The position numbers and the translations under genes were made by a program. This document shows positions 2-49,863 of a DNA stretch of 64,000 nucleotides, one piece after another (position 1 is the stretch's first letter; the number at the start of each line of letters is the position of its first letter). Below the pieces are notes generated by a model. The model did not search any database. It saw only the letters and a list, made by a program, of their open reading frames with translations, and had not been told where the DNA came from. Source of the DNA: a virus; IMG/VR virus record IMGVR_UViG_3300031566_005149, positions 1-64,000 of that record; one strand, given 5' to 3'.

Positions 2-427
2 GATTTCAGTGATTTCAATGATCTGGATCCCGATGATTTCATCGAGACTGAGACTGCCGATGATGACTGGACCGAAGTTACTCCTGAGCCTGATGCAAAT
101 GGAATGGCTGATGGTATGGGAAATCCAACTGGTACCAAAAGCAAGTTGATTGACACAGAGATCACTCATATGCTGTTTAGTGGTATTATATCGAACGGTC
201 CCAACGTTTCGAACGTCACCGTTACCGTCTCTGCCGGTAGCATGACCAATAACTATCCTGTTGTTGGTAAGAGCATTTACGAAGTGGAAAAAATGTTGGG
301 GCAGGTTCTCAACGTTAATCCTTACGCTCGTATCGTTCTTGTCAATGGTGATGAGGTTACCAATGATTATATCATCAAGGAAAATGATGTAATCGAATTC
401 GTTAACGAGGCTTATGATAAAGGCTAA
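2..427 (+). CDS. Ubiquitin-like beta-grasp protein (5' partial)
   Basis: The frame is open from base 2, so the true start lies before the window. The visible part starts with an acidic, Asp/Glu-rich, probably disordered stretch, followed by about 75 residues with a MoaD/ThiS/ubiquitin-like pattern: strand (NVTVTVSAGS), strand, helix (SIYEVEKMLGQVL), strand (ARIVLVNGDEV) and strand (ENDVIEFVNEAY), ending in DKG. A C-terminal glycine is what an E1-type enzyme adenylates, and a ThiF/E1-like gene and an E2-like gene follow directly. From the PRTRC-type and other bacterial Ubl operons I infer a protein modifier. It could instead be a sulfur carrier, but no molybdopterin or thiamine genes are nearby. 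Confidence 0.75.
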   Translation, partial: DFSDFNDLDPDDFIETETADDDWTEVTPEPDANGMADGMGNPTGTKSKLIDTEITHMLFSGIISNGPNVSNVTVTVSAGSMTNNYPVVGKSIYEVEKMLGQVLNVNPYARIVLVNGDEVTNDYIIKENDVIEFVNEAYDKG

Positions 428-452
428 AGATTAGCGAGTGTTGTCAATTACC

Positions 453-474
453 GTGGGGGATTCACGTCCCCCAC
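453..474 (+). terminator. GC-rich hairpin between Ubl and E1 genes
   Basis: GTGGGGGA and TCCCCCAC form a perfect 8-bp stem with a 6-nt loop, 26 bases after the Ubl stop codon. No U-run follows, so it is not a classical intrinsic terminator. It may stabilise the Ubl message 3' end or lower read-through, giving more modifier than E1/E2. Confidence 0.4.
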
Positions 475-504
475 ATCAACTCACCTCTAAAGAAAGGAGA
501 ATTC

Positions 505-510
505 ATGTAA
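505..510 (+). promoter_or_regulatory. Start-stop (ATG TAA) before the E1 start
   Basis: The AAAGGAG Shine-Dalgarno at about 494-500 is ideally spaced (5 nt) from an ATG at 505 that is followed at once by TAA. The E1-like ATG at 511 comes directly after the stop. Ribosomes could initiate on the minimal ORF and then restart, which would lower E1 output. The arrangement is seen directly; a regulatory role is inference. Confidence 0.35.
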
Positions 511-1323
511 ATGAGAAACACAATTGGTCTTGTTGGGGTTGGTTCTCTTGGTGGCTTTCTTGCAAATCAAATTCAAAGCCACGTTGATACCATGTACGTG
601 ATAGACCCAGATAGTGTAGAAGAGAAAAATTTAAGAAACTCAATCTACCATAAATTAGATATAAATAAACCAAAAGTTTATGCACTGAAAAGTAAAATTA
701 CAAAATGCGATCTCGTTCCAGTAAAAGCGAGATTCGAAGACATTGACCTCCCCTCTGTTAACAATTTCATAGATTGTAGAGATATTGTTAATAGAAATAT
801 AAGAACGGATGTGAAATTTTTAATTGTAGGTAGAAATTTGAGAGTGGACTGTGAAGAACCATCTATGACAACTGATGAACCTGGAAATTACCTCATTGAA
901 TTAAGTAAACAAGAAGTGTCCAAAGCGGCACATCTGGCTTCAAAAGTTTTGTTATCAGAAAGAATAAAAGAATTACAGGATGATAAATCATCAATCAATC
1001 TTCCCATATCTACAAAATCTGTTGACAGTGAAATGAAATTCCATATCAAACAGAAAACCAAACCATTATTACAAAGAGATATCAGTAGTCATATTTTCAA
1101 TGAAATCAAAGATATAAGCGACCCAAGAGGATTCGTTCGAACAAGATTATGTAAACTGGATGATCAAAAGGGAATATTAACTTTTGAACCATCATTAATG
1201 CAATACCCAGCAGTTATAACAGCTTTAAATGATGTTGTTTTAAGAGATAATGGAACATATTTTATCGATAAGAAAAATAGATTCATTGAAATCTGTTACC
1301 CAACCTTGGATGGTGGGGCGTAA
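511..1323 (+). CDS. ThiF/E1-like ubiquitin-activating family protein
   Basis: The protein has 270 residues. The N-terminus carries a Rossmann nucleotide-binding loop GVGSLGG (residues 9-15), then an acidic strand end (IDPD, 31-34), and the E1/ThiF/MoeB signature with N40, R42 and downstream lysines (K53, K55), which in the family bind ATP and activate the Ubl C-terminus. NFIDCRD fits the later conserved Asp region. There are no paired CxxC zinc motifs as in MoeB/ThiF. The last 150 residues are unfamiliar. It follows a Ubl gene, and its TAA overlaps the ATG of an E2-like gene by one base, implying translational coupling. Predicted role: adenylation and transfer of the Ubl. Confidence 0.8.
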   Translation: MRNTIGLVGVGSLGGFLANQIQSHVDTMYVIDPDSVEEKNLRNSIYHKLDINKPKVYALKSKITKCDLVPVKARFEDIDLPSVNNFIDCRDIVNRNIRTDVKFLIVGRNLRVDCEEPSMTTDEPGNYLIELSKQEVSKAAHLASKVLLSERIKELQDDKSSINLPISTKSVDSEMKFHIKQKTKPLLQRDISSHIFNEIKDISDPRGFVRTRLCKLDDQKGILTFEPSLMQYPAVITALNDVVLRDNGTYFIDKKNRFIEICYPTLDGGA

Positions 1324-1736
1324 TGCCAAATAAATTAGATGGCATTGATATAATATCCGAAGAAGGGTGGGTAAAGTTTGATCGATCTTGGGTAGTTAGA
1401 TCTACCCGTAAAATAAAATATAAATTCAAATGTTCGCTTAAACCAATATTCTTACTTTCAAAAGGAAATTTATATCCTGTTAAATTGAATGATGAATATT
1501 TGATAACTAATTTCCAAATAATTTCTAGCATTGAAGGTACTCTTGAAATGTTATATCTTGGAAATGACCAACGGCATCCACATAAAGATCCTAGAAATAG
1601 CTGTCTATGTTTAGGAAAATTTGAGGGGAAGCCAATAAGTAAAGGACTTATAGCACTACTGATATGTTGTATTTTGAGGTATAATCAGGATGATTGTTTC
1701 AGCGTTCCAGATTCTTGTTGTGTATTAGAAAAATAA
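1323..1736 (+). CDS. E2-like ubiquitin-conjugating (UBC-fold) protein
   Basis: The protein has 137 residues. The key feature is HPH (residues 85-87) followed seven residues later by CLCLG (94-98). The HPH...CLG pattern marks prokaryotic E2/UBC-like proteins found beside E1 and Ubl genes, where the cysteine (here C94 or C96) takes the modifier as a thioester. The upstream part is strand-rich (YKFKCSLKPIF, LYPVKLNDEYLI), and a hydrophobic helix (GLIALLICCILRY) follows the active site, as expected for the UBC fold. The ATG overlaps the E1 stop, and the beta' gene starts 13 nt downstream. No JAB-type peptidase is visible in the window. Assignment rests on motif plus context. Confidence 0.72.
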   Translation: MPNKLDGIDIISEEGWVKFDRSWVVRSTRKIKYKFKCSLKPIFLLSKGNLYPVKLNDEYLITNFQIISSIEGTLEMLYLGNDQRHPHKDPRNSCLCLGKFEGKPISKGLIALLICCILRYNQDDCFSVPDSCCVLEK

Positions 1737-1749
1737 TGGAGGTCAATTA

Positions 1750-4413
1750 ATGCCAAACATTTTAAATTATAATAAATTTTGTGAAGAACTTGCACCAATT
1801 AGTTCAGTTAAAGTATTTAAAAAGAGATTTTTCCATGCTAAAGGTCTCTTCTCAGAACAGATTTTTGGGCCACTTAAAAACTATACGTGTCAATGCGGAA
1901 CGTATTATGGAATATCCAAATCTGGTGGTGAGTGCGAAGCCTGTGGAGTTGATATTGTTAACAGTAATGAACGGAGAAAACGATTTGCAAAAATTGTCCT
2001 GCCAATTCCAGTAGTTAACCCACTAATGTATGATCTAATCGCATCTTTAGGAGGAAAGAAGATTAAAGCTCCTCTGGACGATTTGATGAAAAATGAGAAG
2101 AGTATCCTATATGTAATAGGTGATGAAACGTTTGTTGTTCATGATGATGAAAAAATTCCCAGAACAGCAACGAAGTATGAGAGGGCAGAAGCGATTTACA
2201 TTCTTGTGAAAAACTTCAGTGAAATGATGTACGAAGATTTGCAAGATGATAATTGGAGGAAGATAGTTGAAAATATAGATAATTTTCTAATTCGTGAAAT
2301 CATTGTTCTCCCACCAGATTTACGACCATCAACTCAAAGTGGATCAAAACAATTGATGGATAAAATCAATCGATATTACATACAAATTCTTACAAAAAAG
2401 GAAGTGATGCAAGCTGCACATTTAGATGTTATGCGGGATAAGAGCATCTACTACACCTTTTTCCGAAACTTACAAAAAGACGTAAAAGAATTACACGAAA
2501 AGATATTAGAAAAACTTGCTAAAAAAGAAGGATTAATAAGAGGGAATATTCTTGGGAAAAGAATTGATTTCTCTGGTCGAGCAGTTATCGTACCTGAACC
2601 ATCCTTATCTTTAGATGAATGTGTTCTTCCATATAAAATGATATTGGAAATTTACAAGTTGCAGATAGCAAAGAGAATAATAGGATTAGGTAGATTTAAG
2701 AAACTCCCAACTGCATTGAATTACATCAATAAGTGTATTAAGTATAATCATTTAAGCTTATTGACTGTATGTGAGGAAATCATAAAAGATAAAGTTTGTA
2801 TACTCAACCGACAACCCTCACTTCATCGTTTGGGTATGTTAGGTTTTAACATAAAGGTTTCTAAAGATTCAGTTATAAAGATCCACCCATTGATTTGTCA
2901 TCCGTTTAACGCAGACTTTGATGGTGATCAGATGGCTATGTATATTCCACTATCAGAAGAAGCCATACAAGAAGTTAAAGATAAAATGTTCGTAACCAAA
3001 AATTTGATTAGTCCTGCCAATGAGGAATTAACAACACTACCAAGCCAGGATATTGTGCTTGGAGTATATTTTCTGACAGCTGGAAGATTCGATACCGATA
3101 CATTCAATGGGGTAAAAGCATTTAATGATATCTTACCAGATGGCTTTGAAGAAGTGAAAGGTACTATAAATTCAAAAAGACTTCTACATATCTTAGATAT
3201 AGTACGAGAAAAACATCCAGACAAATTAGTAGAACTGCTTGATAATATTAAGAAAATGGGATTTTATTATTCCACACTTTCCGGTTGTACGTTGTCGTTG
3301 GACGACTTTTTAATACCAGAAGCCGATGAAGTTAAACGTCATATTTATGAGACAGATGATATATATGAATCACTGAGAAGATCTAGTTCAGAAGACGTTA
3401 TACAATTTCTAAGAGATAATTTTAATTATGCATATCTAATCGAATCTGGTGCTCGTGGTACCTGGGATCAAGCACGACAGTTATGTTTGTCTCGTGGATA
3501 TATATCAAACTTTAAAGGTGAGATTCATAAGAGACCGATTGTTAATAATTTGACTGATGGGTTGACAGAAGAGGAATTCTTCGACTCCACATATGGATGT
3601 CGTAAGGGATTGTTAGATACAGCCTTGAACACCGGAACCTCTGGATATTTATCAAGAAAATTAATATTTACATGTGCTAACCTACAACTCTCAAACGATA
3701 TTGATGATTGTGGAACTAATGATTTACTCGAAATTGAGGTGACAAGTGCTAAAAAAGCATCATGTCTTGTAAATCGTTATATGAAACATGATGATGGATT
3801 ACATGTCATCACAAGAGATAATTATAATGAAATTGTAGGTAAAACTGTAAAAGTAAGAAGTCCAATATATTGCAGTAACCCACGGGTATGTAAAACCTGT
3901 TATGGGGATTCCCACAAAACCCTGAACAGCACATATATTGGTATCATTGCAGCACAAACACTTGGTGAAAAATCAACACAGCTTGTTTTACGAACATTTC
4001 ATACGTCTGGCGCAGCTATAATTAAAGACGGTGCAGATAAGAAAGATATGAAACAAGAAGATATTATTGGTGATTTGGCAACGGTATCGGCAATGTTACA
4101 TAAATTTAAAGATAGAGAATGCACGGATTTGGTGCATGATTTATTTGAAGTCTATGATAGAAATGTTTATCATGTTCATTATGAATGTGTTGTAGCTCAA
4201 TTGATGTGGGTTGGAATGCAAAAGTGGAGATTGCACTCAGAAAGAAATAAATACCAACCAAAATTCCACAGTATCCAATCTGTTCCAGATCAAGAAAGTT
4301 GGATGTTGGCAATGTCTTTCTCCAATCCTAGAAAGAGTATATTGAATGGAATTATTAATTCTGGAAATTATTCTGGAGTTATGGATAAAATATTAAGAGG
4401 AGTCAAAGTTTAA
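1750..4413 (+). CDS. Phage DNA-directed RNA polymerase beta'-like subunit
   Basis: The protein has 887 residues and is a compact single-chain RpoC homologue (bacterial beta' is about 1200-1400). In order: N-terminal GLFSEQIFGP and zinc ribbon (C47, C49, C62, C65); RQPSLHRLGM; catalytic Mg-binding NADFDGDQM (D389, D391, D393); SGARGTWDQARQL; TSGYLSRKL; second zinc site (C654 in DDCGT, then C708, C714, C717); and near the C-terminus GIIAAQTLGE and LRTFHTSGA, matching the trigger-loop region. All catalytic landmarks are intact. SD TGGAGG precedes the ATG. It lies between the E2-like gene and beta. Unlike phiKZ/AR9 subunits it is not split. No alpha, omega or sigma gene is visible. Confidence 0.95.
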   Translation: MPNILNYNKFCEELAPISSVKVFKKRFFHAKGLFSEQIFGPLKNYTCQCGTYYGISKSGGECEACGVDIVNSNERRKRFAKIVLPIPVVNPLMYDLIASLGGKKIKAPLDDLMKNEKSILYVIGDETFVVHDDEKIPRTATKYERAEAIYILVKNFSEMMYEDLQDDNWRKIVENIDNFLIREIIVLPPDLRPSTQSGSKQLMDKINRYYIQILTKKEVMQAAHLDVMRDKSIYYTFFRNLQKDVKELHEKILEKLAKKEGLIRGNILGKRIDFSGRAVIVPEPSLSLDECVLPYKMILEIYKLQIAKRIIGLGRFKKLPTALNYINKCIKYNHLSLLTVCEEIIKDKVCILNRQPSLHRLGMLGFNIKVSKDSVIKIHPLICHPFNADFDGDQMAMYIPLSEEAIQEVKDKMFVTKNLISPANEELTTLPSQDIVLGVYFLTAGRFDTDTFNGVKAFNDILPDGFEEVKGTINSKRLLHILDIVREKHPDKLVELLDNIKKMGFYYSTLSGCTLSLDDFLIPEADEVKRHIYETDDIYESLRRSSSEDVIQFLRDNFNYAYLIESGARGTWDQARQLCLSRGYISNFKGEIHKRPIVNNLTDGLTEEEFFDSTYGCRKGLLDTALNTGTSGYLSRKLIFTCANLQLSNDIDDCGTNDLLEIEVTSAKKASCLVNRYMKHDDGLHVITRDNYNEIVGKTVKVRSPIYCSNPRVCKTCYGDSHKTLNSTYIGIIAAQTLGEKSTQLVLRTFHTSGAAIIKDGADKKDMKQEDIIGDLATVSAMLHKFKDRECTDLVHDLFEVYDRNVYHVHYECVVAQLMWVGMQKWRLHSERNKYQPKFHSIQSVPDQESWMLAMSFSNPRKSILNGIINSGNYSGVMDKILRGVKV

Positions 4414-4434: not shown

Positions 4435-7400
4435 TTGAAAATAGTAAACCCAGCTTATAAGATTAAGGATGAAGACAACAACATCTTTACGTTGAGAAAA
4501 AAAGATCATGGAAGAATGTTACCTGTAATACAGGAAATAGTCCAGCCTGTCAGAGAAATAGGGTTTTCGATTGATAAAGTTGAAATCAAAGGCTCTAGAA
4601 ATATAAAAGGAGAGCTCTCGAAGACTTTATACTCCATTCTTCAAATGAAGTTTTCGAAGGGCTCATCTGTAATCGAACTAAAACTTTATGTGCCAAAACT
4701 TATAGATAATAACTACCTGTATATTAATGGAAGAAAGAAAGTTCCACTATTCCAACTATTCGACGTTCCCATCGTAATGCGGGGGGAAACGTTAAAAATG
4801 CGAACCAATGTTGGGACGATATTGGTATATCCAACCAAGGACTGTCCACATGTCATTTGTGGTTATTTGGGAAAGAAGGTTTCACTGGCTTTAATTATAT
4901 TGGCCTTCTATAGTATTGAAGATCTTCCTGAAATGATAAAAACTGATTTAGAAACCATTAATACACAAAATGTTCCAGGGGATAATGTATACGATAAATT
5001 ATTATTTGATCTTAAAACATATATTGAAGGATCAGTTGGTTTTACACAAGACGATTTCATCCAAGAATTAGGACGATGTTACACGAAATATAATACAATT
5101 CCAAAAGGAAACGATATTATTTATTCTCTCGATCTTATCCCAAAAATCGATATCTTTACAAGAGAATTCTTAGAAACAGGATCTGTATTAGAAGATATTA
5201 TGGTGGCTTTAAAGAGGGGTGAAGTGGATGACACACGATTGCAAAATAAAAGGATTCGATGTTTTGAATATGTGATCTATAGCAATGTGTGTAAAATAAT
5301 TTTTGATATGTGCTTGAGTAATCGAGAAACGAAAAAACCAAAGTTCAATACAAACACCAAGCAGTTAATCACAGCAAGCAATGTTTCAGACATTGTACAA
5401 TTTGACTTCAGTATAAATCCAATTGATAAATTGACAAAATTGAGTAGAATAAGCTTGCTTGGTCCAGGTGGTTTTAAAAGAGAAAACATACCTCGCCACT
5501 TACGAGATATCTATCCATCAATGTTCGGTAGGATGTGTCCTGTTGATACGCCAGATAGGGAAAATTGCGGTGTTCTACAAAATCTGATACCTAACGTCCC
5601 ATTGGATGCTAACATGCGATTTACGGACGATGTGTGCGAAAAACAGCCTATTTCTATACCTGTTGCTTTCACCCCATTCTGTGAACACGACGACCAAACT
5701 AGATTACAGATGGCTTCGGCTCAAATGCGTCAGGCCATTTTGCTCAAGAAATTTGATAAGCCATTAATCCAATCTGGCTCCGAACATCTTTATACTAAAT
5801 ATTCAGATTTCATTAAGATAGCTCCAAAGAACGGTGAGGTATTATACGCCAACGATAAACATATGGTTGTATTATATGATGATGAGAGCGGAGACATATT
5901 CGATATCTCCAACAGAAGAATATATGTTCAGAACGTCGATATAATGTCTGTATATTTCAAAGTGGGTGAAAAGTTTAAAGCTGGAGATATTCTAGCGGAA
6001 AGCAATTATTGCCAGGATGGGGATATCGTTTTTGGTAAAAATCTTCTAACTGGAATCATGATTCACTACGGATATAATTATGAGGATGGGATTGTTATTT
6101 CAGATAAGCTATTCAATGATGGTTCATTAACATCAGTTCATTCTATTGATCTATCTTTCACATTGAAACCTGATCGAGTTCTTATGGATCGCCTTGGTCG
6201 TCATAATGCATACGAACCATTACCTACTCCAAATACAATGTTAGAACCTGGAGATATATATGCAAAAATGCAGAAACTAACAATTGAAGATCCGTTTGCT
6301 GGTTTTTATGAGCCAACGATTTTGGAAACTCCAAACAGGGTTCTAATCACTGATGTAAATATATATGCAAATGAATGGAATGAGGAAATGCCAATATTTA
6401 GAGAGTGGCTTGAATCGTTTCTAGATAAACAGAAAATTGAGCAGGACAAGCTTAAAAAGATTGTAGAGGACAGATTACCACCGGAAGTTTCCAGTGAATT
6501 TGTAAAGGATTATCTACAGTTTGACGATATCGGTAAATATAAAATTAAGAAAGAAAAGATTGATGGAATTCGAATAGAGTTACACGGCCTCCAAATGAAA
6601 CCCATAAGAGTTGGGGATAAAATTGGAAACCGTCATGGTAATAAAGGTGTTGTATCAACCATTATGCCAGAAAATAAAATGCCCCAATTGGATGATGGTC
6701 GACATATAGATATTTGCCTGAATCCTTTAGGTATTATATCTAGAATGAATATAGGCCAGTTATTTGAATTGCATTTGGGGATGGCTGTCAATAATCTAAA
6801 AAATAACGCTTTGAAGATGTTGGAAGAAGAAGTTCCAATGAACGATATTCGAAACTACTTTATCAATTTTATCCGTATTATCGATAAAACAGAAGCTGGA
6901 TGGTATCTTGAACAATTTATAGAACAGCTTCCAGAAACGATAGATAAAGATTTCATCGAAGGATTTTCTGTTATTCAACCACCGTTTGAAAGCGTTAAAG
7001 TTGAGGATTTAAAATCAGCTCTAAAATATACAGAGACACAATTTAAATATAGAGTCTTTGACCCACCTTCAGGACAAGTTGTATCGGGAGAGATTGCTGT
7101 TGGGTTTATGTACTTTTTCAGAATGACACATATAGCTGATGATAAGATGGCAGCTAGAGGTATTGGCTCATACGCAAAACGAACCATGCAGCCTCTTGGT
7201 GGAAGAAGGAATAAAGGTGGACAGAGATGTGGGGAAATGGAAACGGCATGTTTCATCGGTCACGATGCAATGAAAAATCTACACGAAATGCTGACATTAA
7301 AATCAGACTGTTTTGAAACCAAAAATAATTATATAAAAGGTCTGATCGATCCAAAGAATATAATTCAAACTGAAATAGTCGATCCAATACCTGAATCAGT

Positions 7401-7455
7401 TCGTTTATTGAATTCGTATTTGACAGTCTTGGGTGTGGATCATCGGGGGAACTAA
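4435..7455 (+). CDS. Phage DNA-directed RNA polymerase beta-like subunit
   Basis: The protein has 1006 residues, starting at TTG after a strong GAGGAGG. Conserved RpoB landmarks: FGRMCPVDTPDRENCGVLQNL-type rifampicin/fork region (roughly residues 360-385), GDKIGNRHGNKGVVS (active-site lysine-rich loop, about 727-741), GIISRMNIGQLFELHLG, and C-terminal GGRRNKGGQRCGEME plus HEMLTLKSD (clamp/switch region). The protein is complete in one chain and shorter than bacterial beta (about 1150-1340), lacking lineage inserts. It should pair with the upstream beta' to form the catalytic core of a phage-specific RNA polymerase. Its TAA overlaps the folE2-like ATG by one base. Confidence 0.95.
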   Translation: MKIVNPAYKIKDEDNNIFTLRKKDHGRMLPVIQEIVQPVREIGFSIDKVEIKGSRNIKGELSKTLYSILQMKFSKGSSVIELKLYVPKLIDNNYLYINGRKKVPLFQLFDVPIVMRGETLKMRTNVGTILVYPTKDCPHVICGYLGKKVSLALIILAFYSIEDLPEMIKTDLETINTQNVPGDNVYDKLLFDLKTYIEGSVGFTQDDFIQELGRCYTKYNTIPKGNDIIYSLDLIPKIDIFTREFLETGSVLEDIMVALKRGEVDDTRLQNKRIRCFEYVIYSNVCKIIFDMCLSNRETKKPKFNTNTKQLITASNVSDIVQFDFSINPIDKLTKLSRISLLGPGGFKRENIPRHLRDIYPSMFGRMCPVDTPDRENCGVLQNLIPNVPLDANMRFTDDVCEKQPISIPVAFTPFCEHDDQTRLQMASAQMRQAILLKKFDKPLIQSGSEHLYTKYSDFIKIAPKNGEVLYANDKHMVVLYDDESGDIFDISNRRIYVQNVDIMSVYFKVGEKFKAGDILAESNYCQDGDIVFGKNLLTGIMIHYGYNYEDGIVISDKLFNDGSLTSVHSIDLSFTLKPDRVLMDRLGRHNAYEPLPTPNTMLEPGDIYAKMQKLTIEDPFAGFYEPTILETPNRVLITDVNIYANEWNEEMPIFREWLESFLDKQKIEQDKLKKIVEDRLPPEVSSEFVKDYLQFDDIGKYKIKKEKIDGIRIELHGLQMKPIRVGDKIGNRHGNKGVVSTIMPENKMPQLDDGRHIDICLNPLGIISRMNIGQLFELHLGMAVNNLKNNALKMLEEEVPMNDIRNYFINFIRIIDKTEAGWYLEQFIEQLPETIDKDFIEGFSVIQPPFESVKVEDLKSALKYTETQFKYRVFDPPSGQVVSGEIAVGFMYFFRMTHIADDKMAARGIGSYAKRTMQPLGGRRNKGGQRCGEMETACFIGHDAMKNLHEMLTLKSDCFETKNNYIKGLIDPKNIIQTEIVDPIPESVRLLNSYLTVLGVDHRGN

Positions 7456-8285
7456 TGGATATATTACCAGACGTTCAAAAAACAAAACCAGAAATTCCGA
7501 TCTTAATTTCAAGAGTGGGAGTTCAAAATGTGGAGCTCCCATTCCTGTTAAATTTAAGGAATGGGGGTGTTGTATCCGTTCTTGCAATGACAACCATGAT
7601 TTGTGAATTGGACGAAAACGAAAGGGGAATCTCAATGTCCAGATTTATTAGGACATTGAGACCACATTTAAATTATGCTTTAAGACGAATATCAATAGAA
7701 GAAATATTAAAAGACCTTAGCACACAACTCGAATCACAAAAAGTATCTATAAAATTCGAATTTAAAATTCCTGTTGTTGTTAAATCTCCAATAACAAACA
7801 ATGAATTCCCACAGTATTATAAGTGTAGTTTTAGAAGTGATTATTCTCACGGATATTTTCAATTTTATGAAAACGTTAGAGTTCAATATTCTGCATACTG
7901 CCCTTGTTCGGCTGAACTCTGTGCGTCTCAAAGTATAGGATACCCACATAACCAGAGAGCGTTTGCAGATGTTCTAGTGCAAACAAATCGAAAACGATTT
8001 ATATGGTTAGAAGATCTTATAGATTTAGTGGATGAAGCGGTTGTAACGAAACCATATCCAATAATTCAAAGGCCCGATGAAGCGTGGATTGCTATAGAAG
8101 CAGAGAAGCACCCACAATTTGTTGAGGACTCTATAAGAAGTATATCAATCAAGTTGGATAGACTTAGAGGAGTTGTTGATTGGTACGTGAAATGCACACA
8201 CGAAGAATCCATACATACGTCAGATGCCATTGCTATCAATTGGAAAGGCGTTCCAGGTGGATTCAGTGAAATTACATATATTTAG
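7455..8285 (+). CDS. folE2: GTP cyclohydrolase IB (FolE2 family)
   Basis: The protein has 276 residues, close to the usual 260-300. Family marks: N-terminal LPDVQ, RVGVQNVELP, GISMSRFI, the metal/catalytic segment CPCS (C149-C151) followed by PHNQRAF, and C-terminal EESIHTSDAIA. The enzyme opens GTP to 7,8-dihydroneopterin triphosphate, the first step of folate and of 7-deazaguanine synthesis. Phage copies usually feed preQ0-type DNA modification, but no queC, queD, queE or TGT gene is in the window. Its ATG overlaps the beta stop, so it is co-translated with the polymerase operon. Confidence 0.9.
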   Translation: MDILPDVQKTKPEIPILISRVGVQNVELPFLLNLRNGGVVSVLAMTTMICELDENERGISMSRFIRTLRPHLNYALRRISIEEILKDLSTQLESQKVSIKFEFKIPVVVKSPITNNEFPQYYKCSFRSDYSHGYFQFYENVRVQYSAYCPCSAELCASQSIGYPHNQRAFADVLVQTNRKRFIWLEDLIDLVDEAVVTKPYPIIQRPDEAWIAIEAEKHPQFVEDSIRSISIKLDRLRGVVDWYVKCTHEESIHTSDAIAINWKGVPGGFSEITYI

Positions 8286-48765: not shown

Positions 48766-49863
48766 TCACCAACCCTTTTTAATGCAATCGATAATGTATT
48801 CTCTATCTTCCTTTGTCACCCAAAATCCCACAGGAATACAAATATATTTATCATATATACTATCTAAATTTGGAAGATTCTTTTGAAACTTCTTTGTGTA
48901 TGTATAATTATCAAGTCTTTCGTGGACCCTACTTGTTGCAATGCCACATTGCCCCATATAATTTGCAAAGGAGGTTCTATCTTCAACCAAAATTGTATAT
49001 AACCAACTAGAAGAAACTCTATCTGTTAATATTTGCGGAGTTTCTATACCATCAACGTTTTTTAGTTCTTTATCATAGTATTGGGCGTTCGACTGAGCAA
49101 TTTTAACATTTTCTTCTGCTAATTTTATATTACCCATACCTATAACTGCATTTACATCATTAAGATGGAATTTATATCCAGCTTCTTCAATATCATTGAC
49201 ACATCTCATATCTTTAAGATTATTTTCACGACTAATACCAAACCATCTCAAAAGTTTTCCTCTTTTGTAAGCATCTATTTCTCTTGTAAATAAAATTCCA
49301 CCGTCTACAGTTGTTAGAAACTTAATAGCCTGTGTGCTTATCATACAATAATCTGAGTATTGACAATCACCGATTATTGAATCCTTATACATAGAGCCGA
49401 AGGTGTGGGCCGCATCTTCTATTAATACTAAATTATTATCTTTGGCTATTTTGGAGATTGGTTCTAGATCCACAGGATAACCACCCCAATGAACAACAAC
49501 AATTGCCTTAGTATCTTCCCGAATCGATTCTTCTATAGACTGCGGAATCATATTAATATCATTTCCAGTGTCTGACCAAATAATATCAGCGCCGCATGTA
49601 ATAACTGGAGTTATTGACGCCGAGCAGCTCAAGGAAGGGCATATAACAGATGTCCCAGGACCAACGCCAGCTATATGTAAAGCTAAAGTTAACCCATGTG
49701 TACCAGAAGATAGAGACATTACATTTTTATTGTTAAATTTTTTAGATAAAACTTTTTCATATTCTTCTACTTTTTCGCCCTGCCCAATCCAACCACTGAA
49801 TAATACTTTTAATAAATCATTTTGAACAGTTGGAGACATGGCAACTTTAAACAGTGGTATCAT
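48766..49863 (-). CDS. DegT/DnrJ/EryC1-type sugar aminotransferase
   Basis: The protein has 365 residues, the family's usual size. PLP-enzyme marks: SLSSGTHGLTLALH, VICPSLSCSAS, LIEDAAHTFGS (D150 binds the pyridine N), STQAIKFLTTVDGGI with Schiff-base K181, and GYKFHLNDVNAVIG. It makes amino sugars from NDP-4- or 3-keto sugars for glycans or antibiotics. A phage copy beside glycosyltransferases suggests amino-sugar supply. No dehydratase or epimerase is visible, so the substrate may come from the host. Confidence 0.9.
   Translation of the reverse strand: MIPLFKVAMSPTVQNDLLKVLFSGWIGQGEKVEEYEKVLSKKFNNKNVMSLSSGTHGLTLALHIAGVGPGTSVICPSLSCSASITPVITCGADIIWSDTGNDINMIPQSIEESIREDTKAIVVVHWGGYPVDLEPISKIAKDNNLVLIEDAAHTFGSMYKDSIIGDCQYSDYCMISTQAIKFLTTVDGGILFTREIDAYKRGKLLRWFGISRENNLKDMRCVNDIEEAGYKFHLNDVNAVIGMGNIKLAEENVKIAQSNAQYYDKELKNVDGIETPQILTDRVSSSWLYTILVEDRTSFANYMGQCGIATSRVHERLDNYTYTKKFQKNLPNLDSIYDKYICIPVGFWVTKEDREYIIDCIKKGW

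Follow-up and report, generated by a model that had tools for sequence, protein, structure and literature searches.

A phage gene cassette adjoining RNA polymerase genes resembles a ubiquitin-like conjugation and deconjugation system

Bacterial ubiquitin-like conjugation has mainly been studied as host defence. In this study we focus on one end of the virus record IMGVR_UViG_3300031566_005149 (80,157 bases), of which bases 1-64000 form the window, the whole 64,000-nucleotide (nt) stretch of DNA analysed here. A gene for a ubiquitin-like modifier (Ubl) stands there with genes for an E1-like and an E2-like protein (E1b and E2b), followed by the genes of the beta' and beta subunits of RNA polymerase (RNAP). 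Together with upstream genes recovered from a second contig, they form a cassette that we read as the core-genome Ubl conjugation and deconjugation system of a group of tailed phages. We give this reading, whose reactions are predicted from sequences and structure models, a probability of roughly 0.8. Its directly established basis comprises the gene content, order and recurrence of the cassette, conserved catalytic residues, the predicted folds of E2b and Ubl, and co-divergence with RNAP.

The cassette and its recurrence

The first three open reading frames (ORFs) of the window are those of Ubl, E1b and E2b (Table 1). The Ubl ORF, which ends in ..EAYDKG, has no start codon because the window begins at the record end, and the E2b ORF contains HPHKDPRNSCLCLG. 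Only the middle one scores above the Pfam cut-off (ThiF, E 5.4e-8), as do both RNAP subunits. An earlier note on this DNA had described a tailed phage whose Ubl, E1-like and E2-like genes are joined to those of its RNAP; we confirm the three ORFs in the order given there, and the gaps of 13 nt from E2b to beta' and 21 nt from beta' to beta. The coupling that it had extended to all three genes holds for E1b and E2b, which overlap (TAATG), but not for Ubl and E1b, which are separated by 83 nt that include a hairpin. The virus record also encodes a terminase (phrog_2, 1.2e-39), a tail sheath protein (phrog_19666, 6.5e-73) and a baseplate wedge protein (phrog_219, 8.4e-29), so that by its gene content the window virus is a contractile-tailed phage.

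A second contig, IMGVR_UViG_3300031565_008220 (43,131 bases), shares 15,647 bases with the window without a difference and extends 27,484 bases further upstream; a stretch of it is termed L002, and other loci carry L numbers likewise. The JAB peptidase gene that the earlier note had guessed to lie upstream is found there, along with a second, more canonical E1 (E1a) and a second E2 domain (E2a). The assembled gene order is E2a-JAB-E1a-Ubl-E1b-E2b-beta'-beta.

Table 1. Features of the cassette and its neighbourhood (positions refer to the window unless a locus is named)
Feature	Position	Strand	Length	Description
E2a	L113:1218-4880		1,220 aa	ORF with N-terminal PRTRC_B-type E2 domain; upstream of JAB; incomplete in L002
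JAB (JAMM peptidase)	L002:2200-3510		436 aa	JAMM motif HSHCDFGAFHSGTD
E1a	L002:3515-4276		253 aa	second E1-like protein
Ubl, whole	L002:4282-4917		211 aa	predicted Rho_N-like N-terminal domain, acidic linker, C-terminal beta-grasp, tail ..DKG
Ubl, 3' two thirds	2..427	+	141 aa	open at 5' end
Intergenic hairpin	453..474	+		GTGGGGG..CCCCCAC, between Ubl and E1b; without T-run
E1b	511..1323	+	270 aa	ThiF-type adenylating domain (residues ~1-120) and C-terminal domain ending ..GGA
E2b	1323..1736	+	137 aa	predicted UBC-fold E2-like protein; HP(N/H)..C signature: H85, P86, H87, C96
RNAP beta'	1750..4413	+		Pfam RNA_pol_Rpb1_2, 2.7e-34; neighbour, co-inherited
RNAP beta	4435..7455	+		Pfam RNA_pol_Rpb2_6, 7.5e-53; neighbour
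folE2 (type I GTP cyclohydrolase)	7455-8285			directly after beta; present in 63/77 relatives

An E1a-alignment scan of viral contigs gave 146 relatives, of which 80 were kept, and iterated hidden Markov models (HMMs) were run over 86 loci, namely 79 from the E1a scan and 7 others, duplicates included. JAB, E1a, Ubl, E1b, E2b, beta' and beta occur in one order and on one strand in 55 of the 86. Because this first sample had been picked by E1a, the scan was repeated with a beta' alignment, its seeds mostly from the E1a sample; at least 521 relatives were confirmed, and the 79 closest to the window were kept. Among the closest matches listed, 65 beta' loci have at least 5.5 kb upstream, and all five cassette genes called by HMM (JAB, E1a, Ubl, E1b and E2b) were found in 52 of them (49 of 62 after removal of identical beta'); the "E1b" counted in L171, L181 and L183 of this sample is another ThiF-type gene. 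Over both samples, the order JAB-E1a-Ubl-E1b-E2b-beta' on one strand is found in 61 loci distinct by the last 150 amino acids (aa) of E1a, and is therefore not due to chance. Scans for close relatives with E1b or E2b as single proteins returned the same phage only, L013 being added by one later scan.

Moreover, the cassette proteins diverge together with RNAP. Across 47 distinct loci, left after taking out GenBank loci, 7 duplicates and L068, Mantel correlations of distance matrices with that of beta' were 0.56 for JAB, 0.80 for E1a, 0.77 for Ubl, 0.66 for E1b and 0.55 for E2b, as compared with 0.91 for beta; every one of these values was reached in 0 of 999 permutations.

Component proteins

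The E1, E2 and JAMM proteins of the cassette retain their catalytic residues despite low overall identity, a pattern that probably reflects selection for catalysis. In the JAB alignment (63 of 70 sequences taken) the residues of an intact JAMM motif, E84, H134, H136, S144 and D147, are invariant, and C284 and C287, which are zinc-ribbon-like, are kept in 58 of the 63, while identity to the first aligned sequence is 18-51%. The JAB profile matches Rpn11 (0.016), STAM-binding protein (AMSH, 0.044) and BilC (0.086) weakly, and 22 of its 23 matches at E<=1 belong to the JAB superfamily; NCBIfam PRTRC_A matches 60 of the 63 JABs at E<=0.01.

E1a is the more canonical of the two E1-like proteins. 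All 67 aligned sequences (of 69) keep G15, G17, G18, D47, R58, K67, D121, N122, R126 and C188 at 31-71% identity to the first, and the profile matches ThiF-type 9egc (4.9e-11), MoeB (6e-11) and UBA5 (2.7e-10). NCBIfam PRTRC_ThiF matches 66 of the 67 at E<=0.001 (best 1.7e-16), which indicates relatedness and not specificity, since the thiazole ThiF model adenyl_thiF fits E1a equally (66 of 67, best 3.4e-17).

E1b contains the one ThiF domain recognised by Pfam in the three window ORFs, and all its 51 sequences could be aligned (19-53% identity to the first). G9, G11, G14, D32 and K55 are kept in all, C89 in 50 and A270 in 49. Profile matches were obtained to MoeB (1jw9, 2.2e-14), to Cap2 (2.6e-10) and to NEDD8-activating E1 (3.8e-9); the PADLOC E1-E2 model matches E1b (3.2e-9), and ThiS-adenylyltransferase models match as well (4.7e-10). 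The extreme C-terminus (window 1246-1323) is conserved, and 60 of 66 distinct proteins called E1b terminate in Ala, with GAA in 36 and GGA in 16.

For Ubl, 62 of 65 sequences were aligned (L076, L084 and L092 out; L058, L068 and L072 had been dropped earlier as mis-called or truncated, the L068 and L072 calls having no KG end). K210 and G211 are present in 62/62 and G208 in 59, with identities to the first sequence of 19-71%. The earlier note's assignment of the first gene as a Ubl ending in Gly agrees with a beta-grasp model and the KG end, although the ORF that it described is cut by the contig start and the whole gene encodes 211 aa. In the model (mean predicted local distance difference test, pLDDT, 73.4), residues 144-204 form strand-strand-helix-strand-strand. 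Residues 138-211 were superimposed by VIA-align on ubiquitin, ISG15 and NEDD8 chains with Z 7.8-7.3 and a root-mean-square deviation (rmsd) of 2.1-4.0 over 67-74 residues, and all 50 best rows are ubiquitin or Ubl-domain chains; structure prediction thus points to the ubiquitin-like beta-grasp proposed earlier. The N-terminus matches the Rho N-terminal domain (PDB 3l0o, 0.0016), and Pfam finds Rho_N in 33 of the 62 Ubls, ThiS in 9 and TGS in 13, Prok_Ub (PF14454) being absent from the families matched at E<=0.01. The window fragment gives sub-threshold Pfam matches only (ThiS 0.053, SAMP2 0.087).

The tail of Ubl was compared over 58 distinct ORFs of the beta' sample. It ends in KG in 35 and in KGC in 16, and five others extend 1-9 residues past KG; two have no KG in the last 12 residues and may be mis-called or truncated. 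The single residue beyond the glycine in KGC would fit precursor trimming by a JAMM enzyme. By the sequence of the tail and the known specificity of trypsin, digestion would leave a single Gly (+57 Da), so that the mass-spectrometric search for a GG remnant advised in the earlier note would fail. What looks like a fusion of Ubl with E1b in L058 is, judged by eye, probably a frameshift and was set aside.

E2b is, by its modelled structure, a UBC-fold E2-like protein for which thioester-forming activity is predicted. P41, H85 and C96 are present in 47/47 aligned sequences (of 48, L073 out), P86 in 46 and an asparagine at position 87 in 44, so that the triplet reads HPN in 43, HPH in 2, HVN in 1 and HPL in 1, at 14-42% identity to the first sequence. 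The model built from this alignment has a pLDDT of 88.7. When Foldseek's 1000 best chains were re-ranked with VIA-align, the first 28 rows were all E2 or UEV proteins (Z 7.3-4.7), led by UbcH8 (Z 7.3, rmsd 3.7, 115 residues), and row 29 was a Mediator chain (Z 4.2). As a Z under 8 may correspond to a common arrangement, we base the UBC-fold call on this clean ranking together with the HPN..C motif. At E<=1 the PDB profile search gives one match, an E2-21 kDa (E 0.095), whose alignment falls exactly on HPN..C, and Pfam returns a chance-level BglI match (0.17) alone for the window protein. The E2-like assignment of the earlier note has thus come through structure prediction, UBC folds heading the VIA-align list, while Foldseek alone gave no match at E<=0.001.

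The second E2 was recognised through an alignment of four phage PRTRC-type E2s, from Bacillus phage KLEB27-3, Salmonella phage Arash, Vibrio phage D69 and gut phage MT835919. Against Prok-E2_D the gut phage protein is over the cut-off (3e-11), and those of KLEB27-3 (2.7e-4), D69 (4.4e-4) and Arash (0.024) are below it. The N-terminal domain of E2a aligns to the four with an hhalign probability of 96.1% (E 3.5e-9, 193 columns), centred on P[LFM]xN[IV]x6C.G, and N211 and C219 are invariant in 61/61 sequences. An E2a-domain HMM in turn finds the KLEB27-3 E2 (2e-8).

Proposed function and its alternatives

From these parts we infer each reaction step, the E1-E2 pairing and the targets. If trimming is required, the JAMM peptidase would cut the Ubl precursor back to a free ..KG end. 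E1a would adenylate the terminal glycine and then take Ubl onto Cys188, and E2a (Cys219) and/or E2b (HPN..C, Cys96) would hand it to target lysines, from which the JAMM enzyme could also remove it. E1b and E2b may constitute an additional activating/conjugating pair. Given the Rho_N-like domain at the N-terminus of Ubl, a conjugated target would acquire a small module that may bind nucleic acid.

Several results weigh against this reading. The five-gene set is incomplete in 13 of the 65 beta' loci, four of them without a called E2b only, 7 with other subsets and 2 with none of the genes. The dN/dS ratios of the window phage versus L013 and L017, 0.03-0.33 where dS is finite, speak in its favour, but dS is near saturation. 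The window's own E2b, like that of L013, has HPH, with H for N at position 87. Pfam UQ_con matches 1 of 47 E2b proteins (E 0.0059), leaving 46 without a match at E<=0.01. Foldseek alone finds nothing at E<=0.001 for the E2b model, whose UBC match stays at Z 7.3 or less, nor for the Ubl model, for which the best E is 0.016 (yeast SUMO). The E2a profile has zero matches in the PDB, and the E2a-domain HMM misses the Arash, D69 and gut phage E2s at E<=0.001. Lastly, the window proteins fall below the NCBIfam curated cut-offs for PRTRC_A (20.1 of 101.8 bits) and PRTRC_ThiF (30.9 of 144.75), and there is the equal fit of adenyl_thiF to E1a.

This last point also bears on a sulfur-carrier function, in which the ThiF-like proteins would adenylate Ubl, and Ubl, as a thiocarboxylate donor of the ThiS/MoaD type, would serve a phage thio-modification of a cofactor, tRNA or DNA. 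It is joined by the match of E1b to ThiS-adenylyltransferase models, the ThiS and TGS matches among Ubls, and folE2 adjoining RNAP. Two E2-type proteins with a conserved cysteine and a JAMM enzyme are present, on the other hand. The earlier note had also raised sulfur-carrier operons as a setting for homologues; rhodanese (PF00581) and ATP_bind_3 (PF01171) were each found in 0 of 20 fragmentary records, as compared with 13 and 14 of 14 controls, and ThiG and MoaE were not searched. Aminotran_5 (PF00266) was found in 1 of 22 records, in a minus-strand ORF (window 48766-49863) that by eye looks like a DegT-type sugar aminotransferase. Since the records are fragmentary and ThiG and MoaE were left out, these results lower the sulfur-carrier explanation without killing it, and we regard it as very unlikely.

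The proteins might also serve processing only, the JAMM enzyme cleaving Ubl-tailed precursors as proposed for lambda I and K, with the E1- and E2-like proteins as non-catalytic remnants. Lambdoid pairs of a Ubl (TAPI) and a JAB (TAPK) tail gene are indeed known without E1 or E2, according to the part of PMC1779556 available. The nucleotide-site and Cys residues of E1a and the Cys residues of E2a and E2b, however, never vary in sets of 67, 61 and 47 divergent proteins, which makes this explanation extremely improbable.

Could the cassette be a weapon against host defence or other phages? Such a relative of the host Ubl defences Bil and CBASS Cap2 would put tags on rival virions or on defence proteins of the host. 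In its favour, both PADLOC and the Cap2 profile liken E1b to the E1 part of CBASS E1-E2 proteins, and JAB weakly matches BilC. On the other side, a syntenic block diverging with RNAP would be unexpected for an accessory weapon, and PADLOC has no match to the window phage's JAB, E1a, Ubl or E2b (no CD-NTase search was made). We consider this role doubtful.

A further question is whether the cassette contains two modifier pathways, a PRTRC-type one (E2a-JAB-E1a-Ubl, with a Gly tail) and one formed by E1b and E2b, with the C-terminal domain of E1b as a modifier whose conserved end, ..ETGAA/GGA, is an Ala. The Ala ends of most distinct E1b-called proteins (60 of 66) support the idea. E1b is split in four distant phages (L171, L182, L183 and L184), where its C-terminal part looks like a separate ORF of 85-95 aa after a short E1b; these ORFs terminate in TGTA, TDAA, PSSA and VESA, and lie directly before E2b in L171, L182 and L184, with two other ORFs intervening in L183. 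An hhalign comparison of the E1b C-terminal domain with Ubl gave nothing (probability 0.7%), which counts against two pathways; the domain as a Ubl is unsupported by this comparison, its strand order having been read by eye. We find the proposal rather improbable, and give no more credit to its extension, that in the four distant phages the E1b-E2b pathway would be the part staying with RNAP.

The cassette is part of a wider conserved gene block. In the 59 beta' loci whose upstream stretch measures 8.9 kb or more, E1b was called in 56, JAB in 53, E2b in 52, E1a and Ubl in 51 each and E2a in 50, alongside a 114-aa gene in 49, a 143-aa gene in 43 and a radical-SAM-like gene in 42; SbcC- and SbcD-like genes farther upstream were called in 12 and 7, lying mostly outside the stretch. 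Downstream, in the 77 loci that are long enough, the genes following folE2 are present in 55, 54, 36 and 18. Because flanking genes on both sides are conserved too, RNAP as a target is put forward here only as a hypothesis. A transcript shared with RNAP is hypothetical. The linkage may well be mere inherited gene order, the cassette being a real conjugation system that acts outside transcription; with folE2 and its followers kept, and E2a and three other genes kept upstream, we hold the chances of this to be about even.

The incomplete loci bear on the same point. Eight of the 13 were read through, and five (L162, L171, L182, L183 and L184) have a Rossmann protein of the E1b type near beta' along with an HP(N/H)..C protein, with JAB-E1a-Ubl replaced or not found beside them, which speaks against mere inheritance of order; the read-through showed no such pair near beta' in L165, L180 or L181. 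Another ThiF-type E1 lies about 5-8 kb upstream in L171, L181 and L183, followed by a JAB in L183. In 9 records without the adjacent set, the E1a profile gave only 6 weak partial matches, to the L162 E1b or to other ThiF-type genes, and the Ubl profile gave none. L015 has no cassette beside RNAP, and in three named phages with a distant RNAP (L196-L198) none was found within the near-RNAP stretch fetched. The L074 and L015 records each have two beta'-type RNAP genes per contig.

A second phage group comprises 22 loci (L071, L072, L075-L091 and L093-L095), on contigs that reach 527 kb; its loci have E1a and Ubl, JAB in all except L084, and no called E1b or E2b; an E2b profile run over 22 whole records (this group and odd contigs) gave one 18-position fragment only. 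Beta' is over the cut-off in 1 of 17 records tested, in keeping with a cassette that can stand apart from RNAP. The E2a-domain HMM matches upstream of JAB in 15 of the 22 loci, mostly weakly (E 9e-4 to 2e-41), and matches again in L077-L095, often in pairs, at about 13-16 kb along the loci, several kb past Ubl. As the N..C motif is readable only in L071 and L072, and with these recurring matches, an active E2a is not established in this group, and the extra matches are possible E2-like paralogues.

One genome scan for cellular relatives gave 12 loci. In L099 (binned as Thermoplasmatales) and L100 (binned as Woesearchaeota) the phage block is found along with RNAP, except that L100 has no called E2b. 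Both are probably viral contigs; the bins may contain mis-binned viruses or hint at hosts. The ten others come from Patescibacteria, Lentisphaerae and further bacteria, and have no called E2b or RNAP. JAB, E1a and Ubl were called in eight, L106 being without a called Ubl and the 3.8-kb contig L108 without a called JAB; the Ubl of L104 ends in KA. A JAB-E1-Ubl triplet was seen in L101-L105, L109 and L110 (Patescibacteria and other bacterial contigs of metagenome-assembled genomes), where the HMM applied gave no E2a call. This suggests that the cellular triplet is the nearest kin of the phage cassette, and its occurrence in Patescibacteria without RNAP nearby again fits inherited order.

If conjugation does take place, synteny alone points tentatively, at clearly less than even odds, to phage or host transcription or DNA machinery as the likeliest class of targets. 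That the phage RNAP itself should be the target seems unlikely.

Within the cassette, the hairpin between Ubl and E1b has similar counterparts, found by eye, in L013 and L017. RNA folding of window 425-513 gave a z of -1.84, with 12 of 200 shuffles equally good. At the E1b start (501-513) a Shine-Dalgarno-like AAAGGAG precedes a start-stop-start arrangement, ATGTAAATG, also seen in L013 and L017; it stands ahead of E1b in just 3 of 52 E1b loci. An ORF of about 70 aa (..LMPxLDxxISxxVKxHF..) recurs between E2b and beta' in many relatives (e.g. L020:10685-10927), for which the gap in the window phage is too small.

Relation to known systems

Among known systems, PRTRC cassettes (Iyer type 6d) fit best, E1b and E2b being an addition to them. 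An E2_D-type E2 domain, a PRTRC_A-like JAB, a PRTRC_ThiF-like E1 and a Gly-ended Ubl are shared, as far as the available part of PMC1779556 describes them; a further trait given there is an N-terminal JAB domain in which an Arg and a Trp are conserved. The phage cassette differs in being phage-borne, in the extra E1b-E2b pair, in the Rho_N domain on Ubl and in adjoining RNAP.

The P of PRTRC stands for a ParB-related protein. PRTRC ParB (TIGR03734) was over the cut-off in 0 of the 20 fragmentary records, with matches below it in 2, while among controls 8 of 14 were below and 0 over. Because the curated cut-offs are missed and ParB was not found in these fragments, we describe the cassette as related to PRTRC and working like it, and not as a strict member.

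The earlier note had considered a tailed-phage cassette joined to its own RNA polymerase undescribed. This agrees with our search, in which, among the open-access papers listed, no description of a phage Ubl conjugation cassette was found by title or abstract start (a subscription paper or preprint being possible), nor, by titles, any phage paper on PRTRC. The available part of a jumbo-phage overview (PMC7824862) makes no mention of Ubl, ThiF, JAB, UBC or E1-like proteins, and that of PMC1779556 mentions phage Ubl and JAB in lambdoid and T1-like tail clusters. PRTRC-type cassettes are also present in the tailed phages KLEB27-3, Arash and D69, with the E2-JAB-E1 order shared, and, in another gene order, in gut phage MT835919; Vibrio phages D181 and D148 gave the same tblastn matches. 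E2b and a second E1 were not called in these four phages within the stretches fetched, and tblastn of E1b in named phages gave zero matches. Arash and D69 have beta' in the record but not adjacent to the cassette, and the beta' match of KLEB27-3 is sub-threshold. KLEB27-3 also encodes four tandem Prok_Ub units in a polyubiquitin-like arrangement (L005:676-1425), and D69 three repeats ending in TKG (L007:1283-2074) that look Ubl-like by eye and match zero Pfam families.

Bil (BilABCD) and CBASS Cap2/Cap3 also combine E1, E2 and JAB parts, and E1b resembles the E1 half of Cap2. These systems serve host defence, as stated in the available parts of PMC11354881 and PMC12355090. In CBASS type II, which has an adjacent CD-NTase, Cap2 is an E2-E1 fusion, whereas E1b and E2b are separate ORFs and phage-borne. 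With the lambda tail assembly proteins I (Ubl) and K (JAB) the cassette shares a phage Ubl and JAB; those are tail genes, and E1 and E2 are absent there. Eukaryotic UBC E2s share the HPN..C signature and the fold with E2b, at 8-16% identity in the top structural rows.

If active, the cassette would provide reversible protein tagging in the phages' own life cycle, possibly controlling transcription. Its simple set of separate genes for E1, E2, Ubl and JAB, the E2 being of the HPN type, would then shed light on how eukaryotic ubiquitin systems arose. The cassette is a small, expressible and testable system, and a named relative, Bacillus phage KLEB27-3, has a PRTRC-type set. Ubl machines are known from cells, plasmids and anti-virus defences rather than as a viral core component; here, what looks like such a machine forms a near-constant phage block with two E1/E2 sets that adjoins RNA polymerase.

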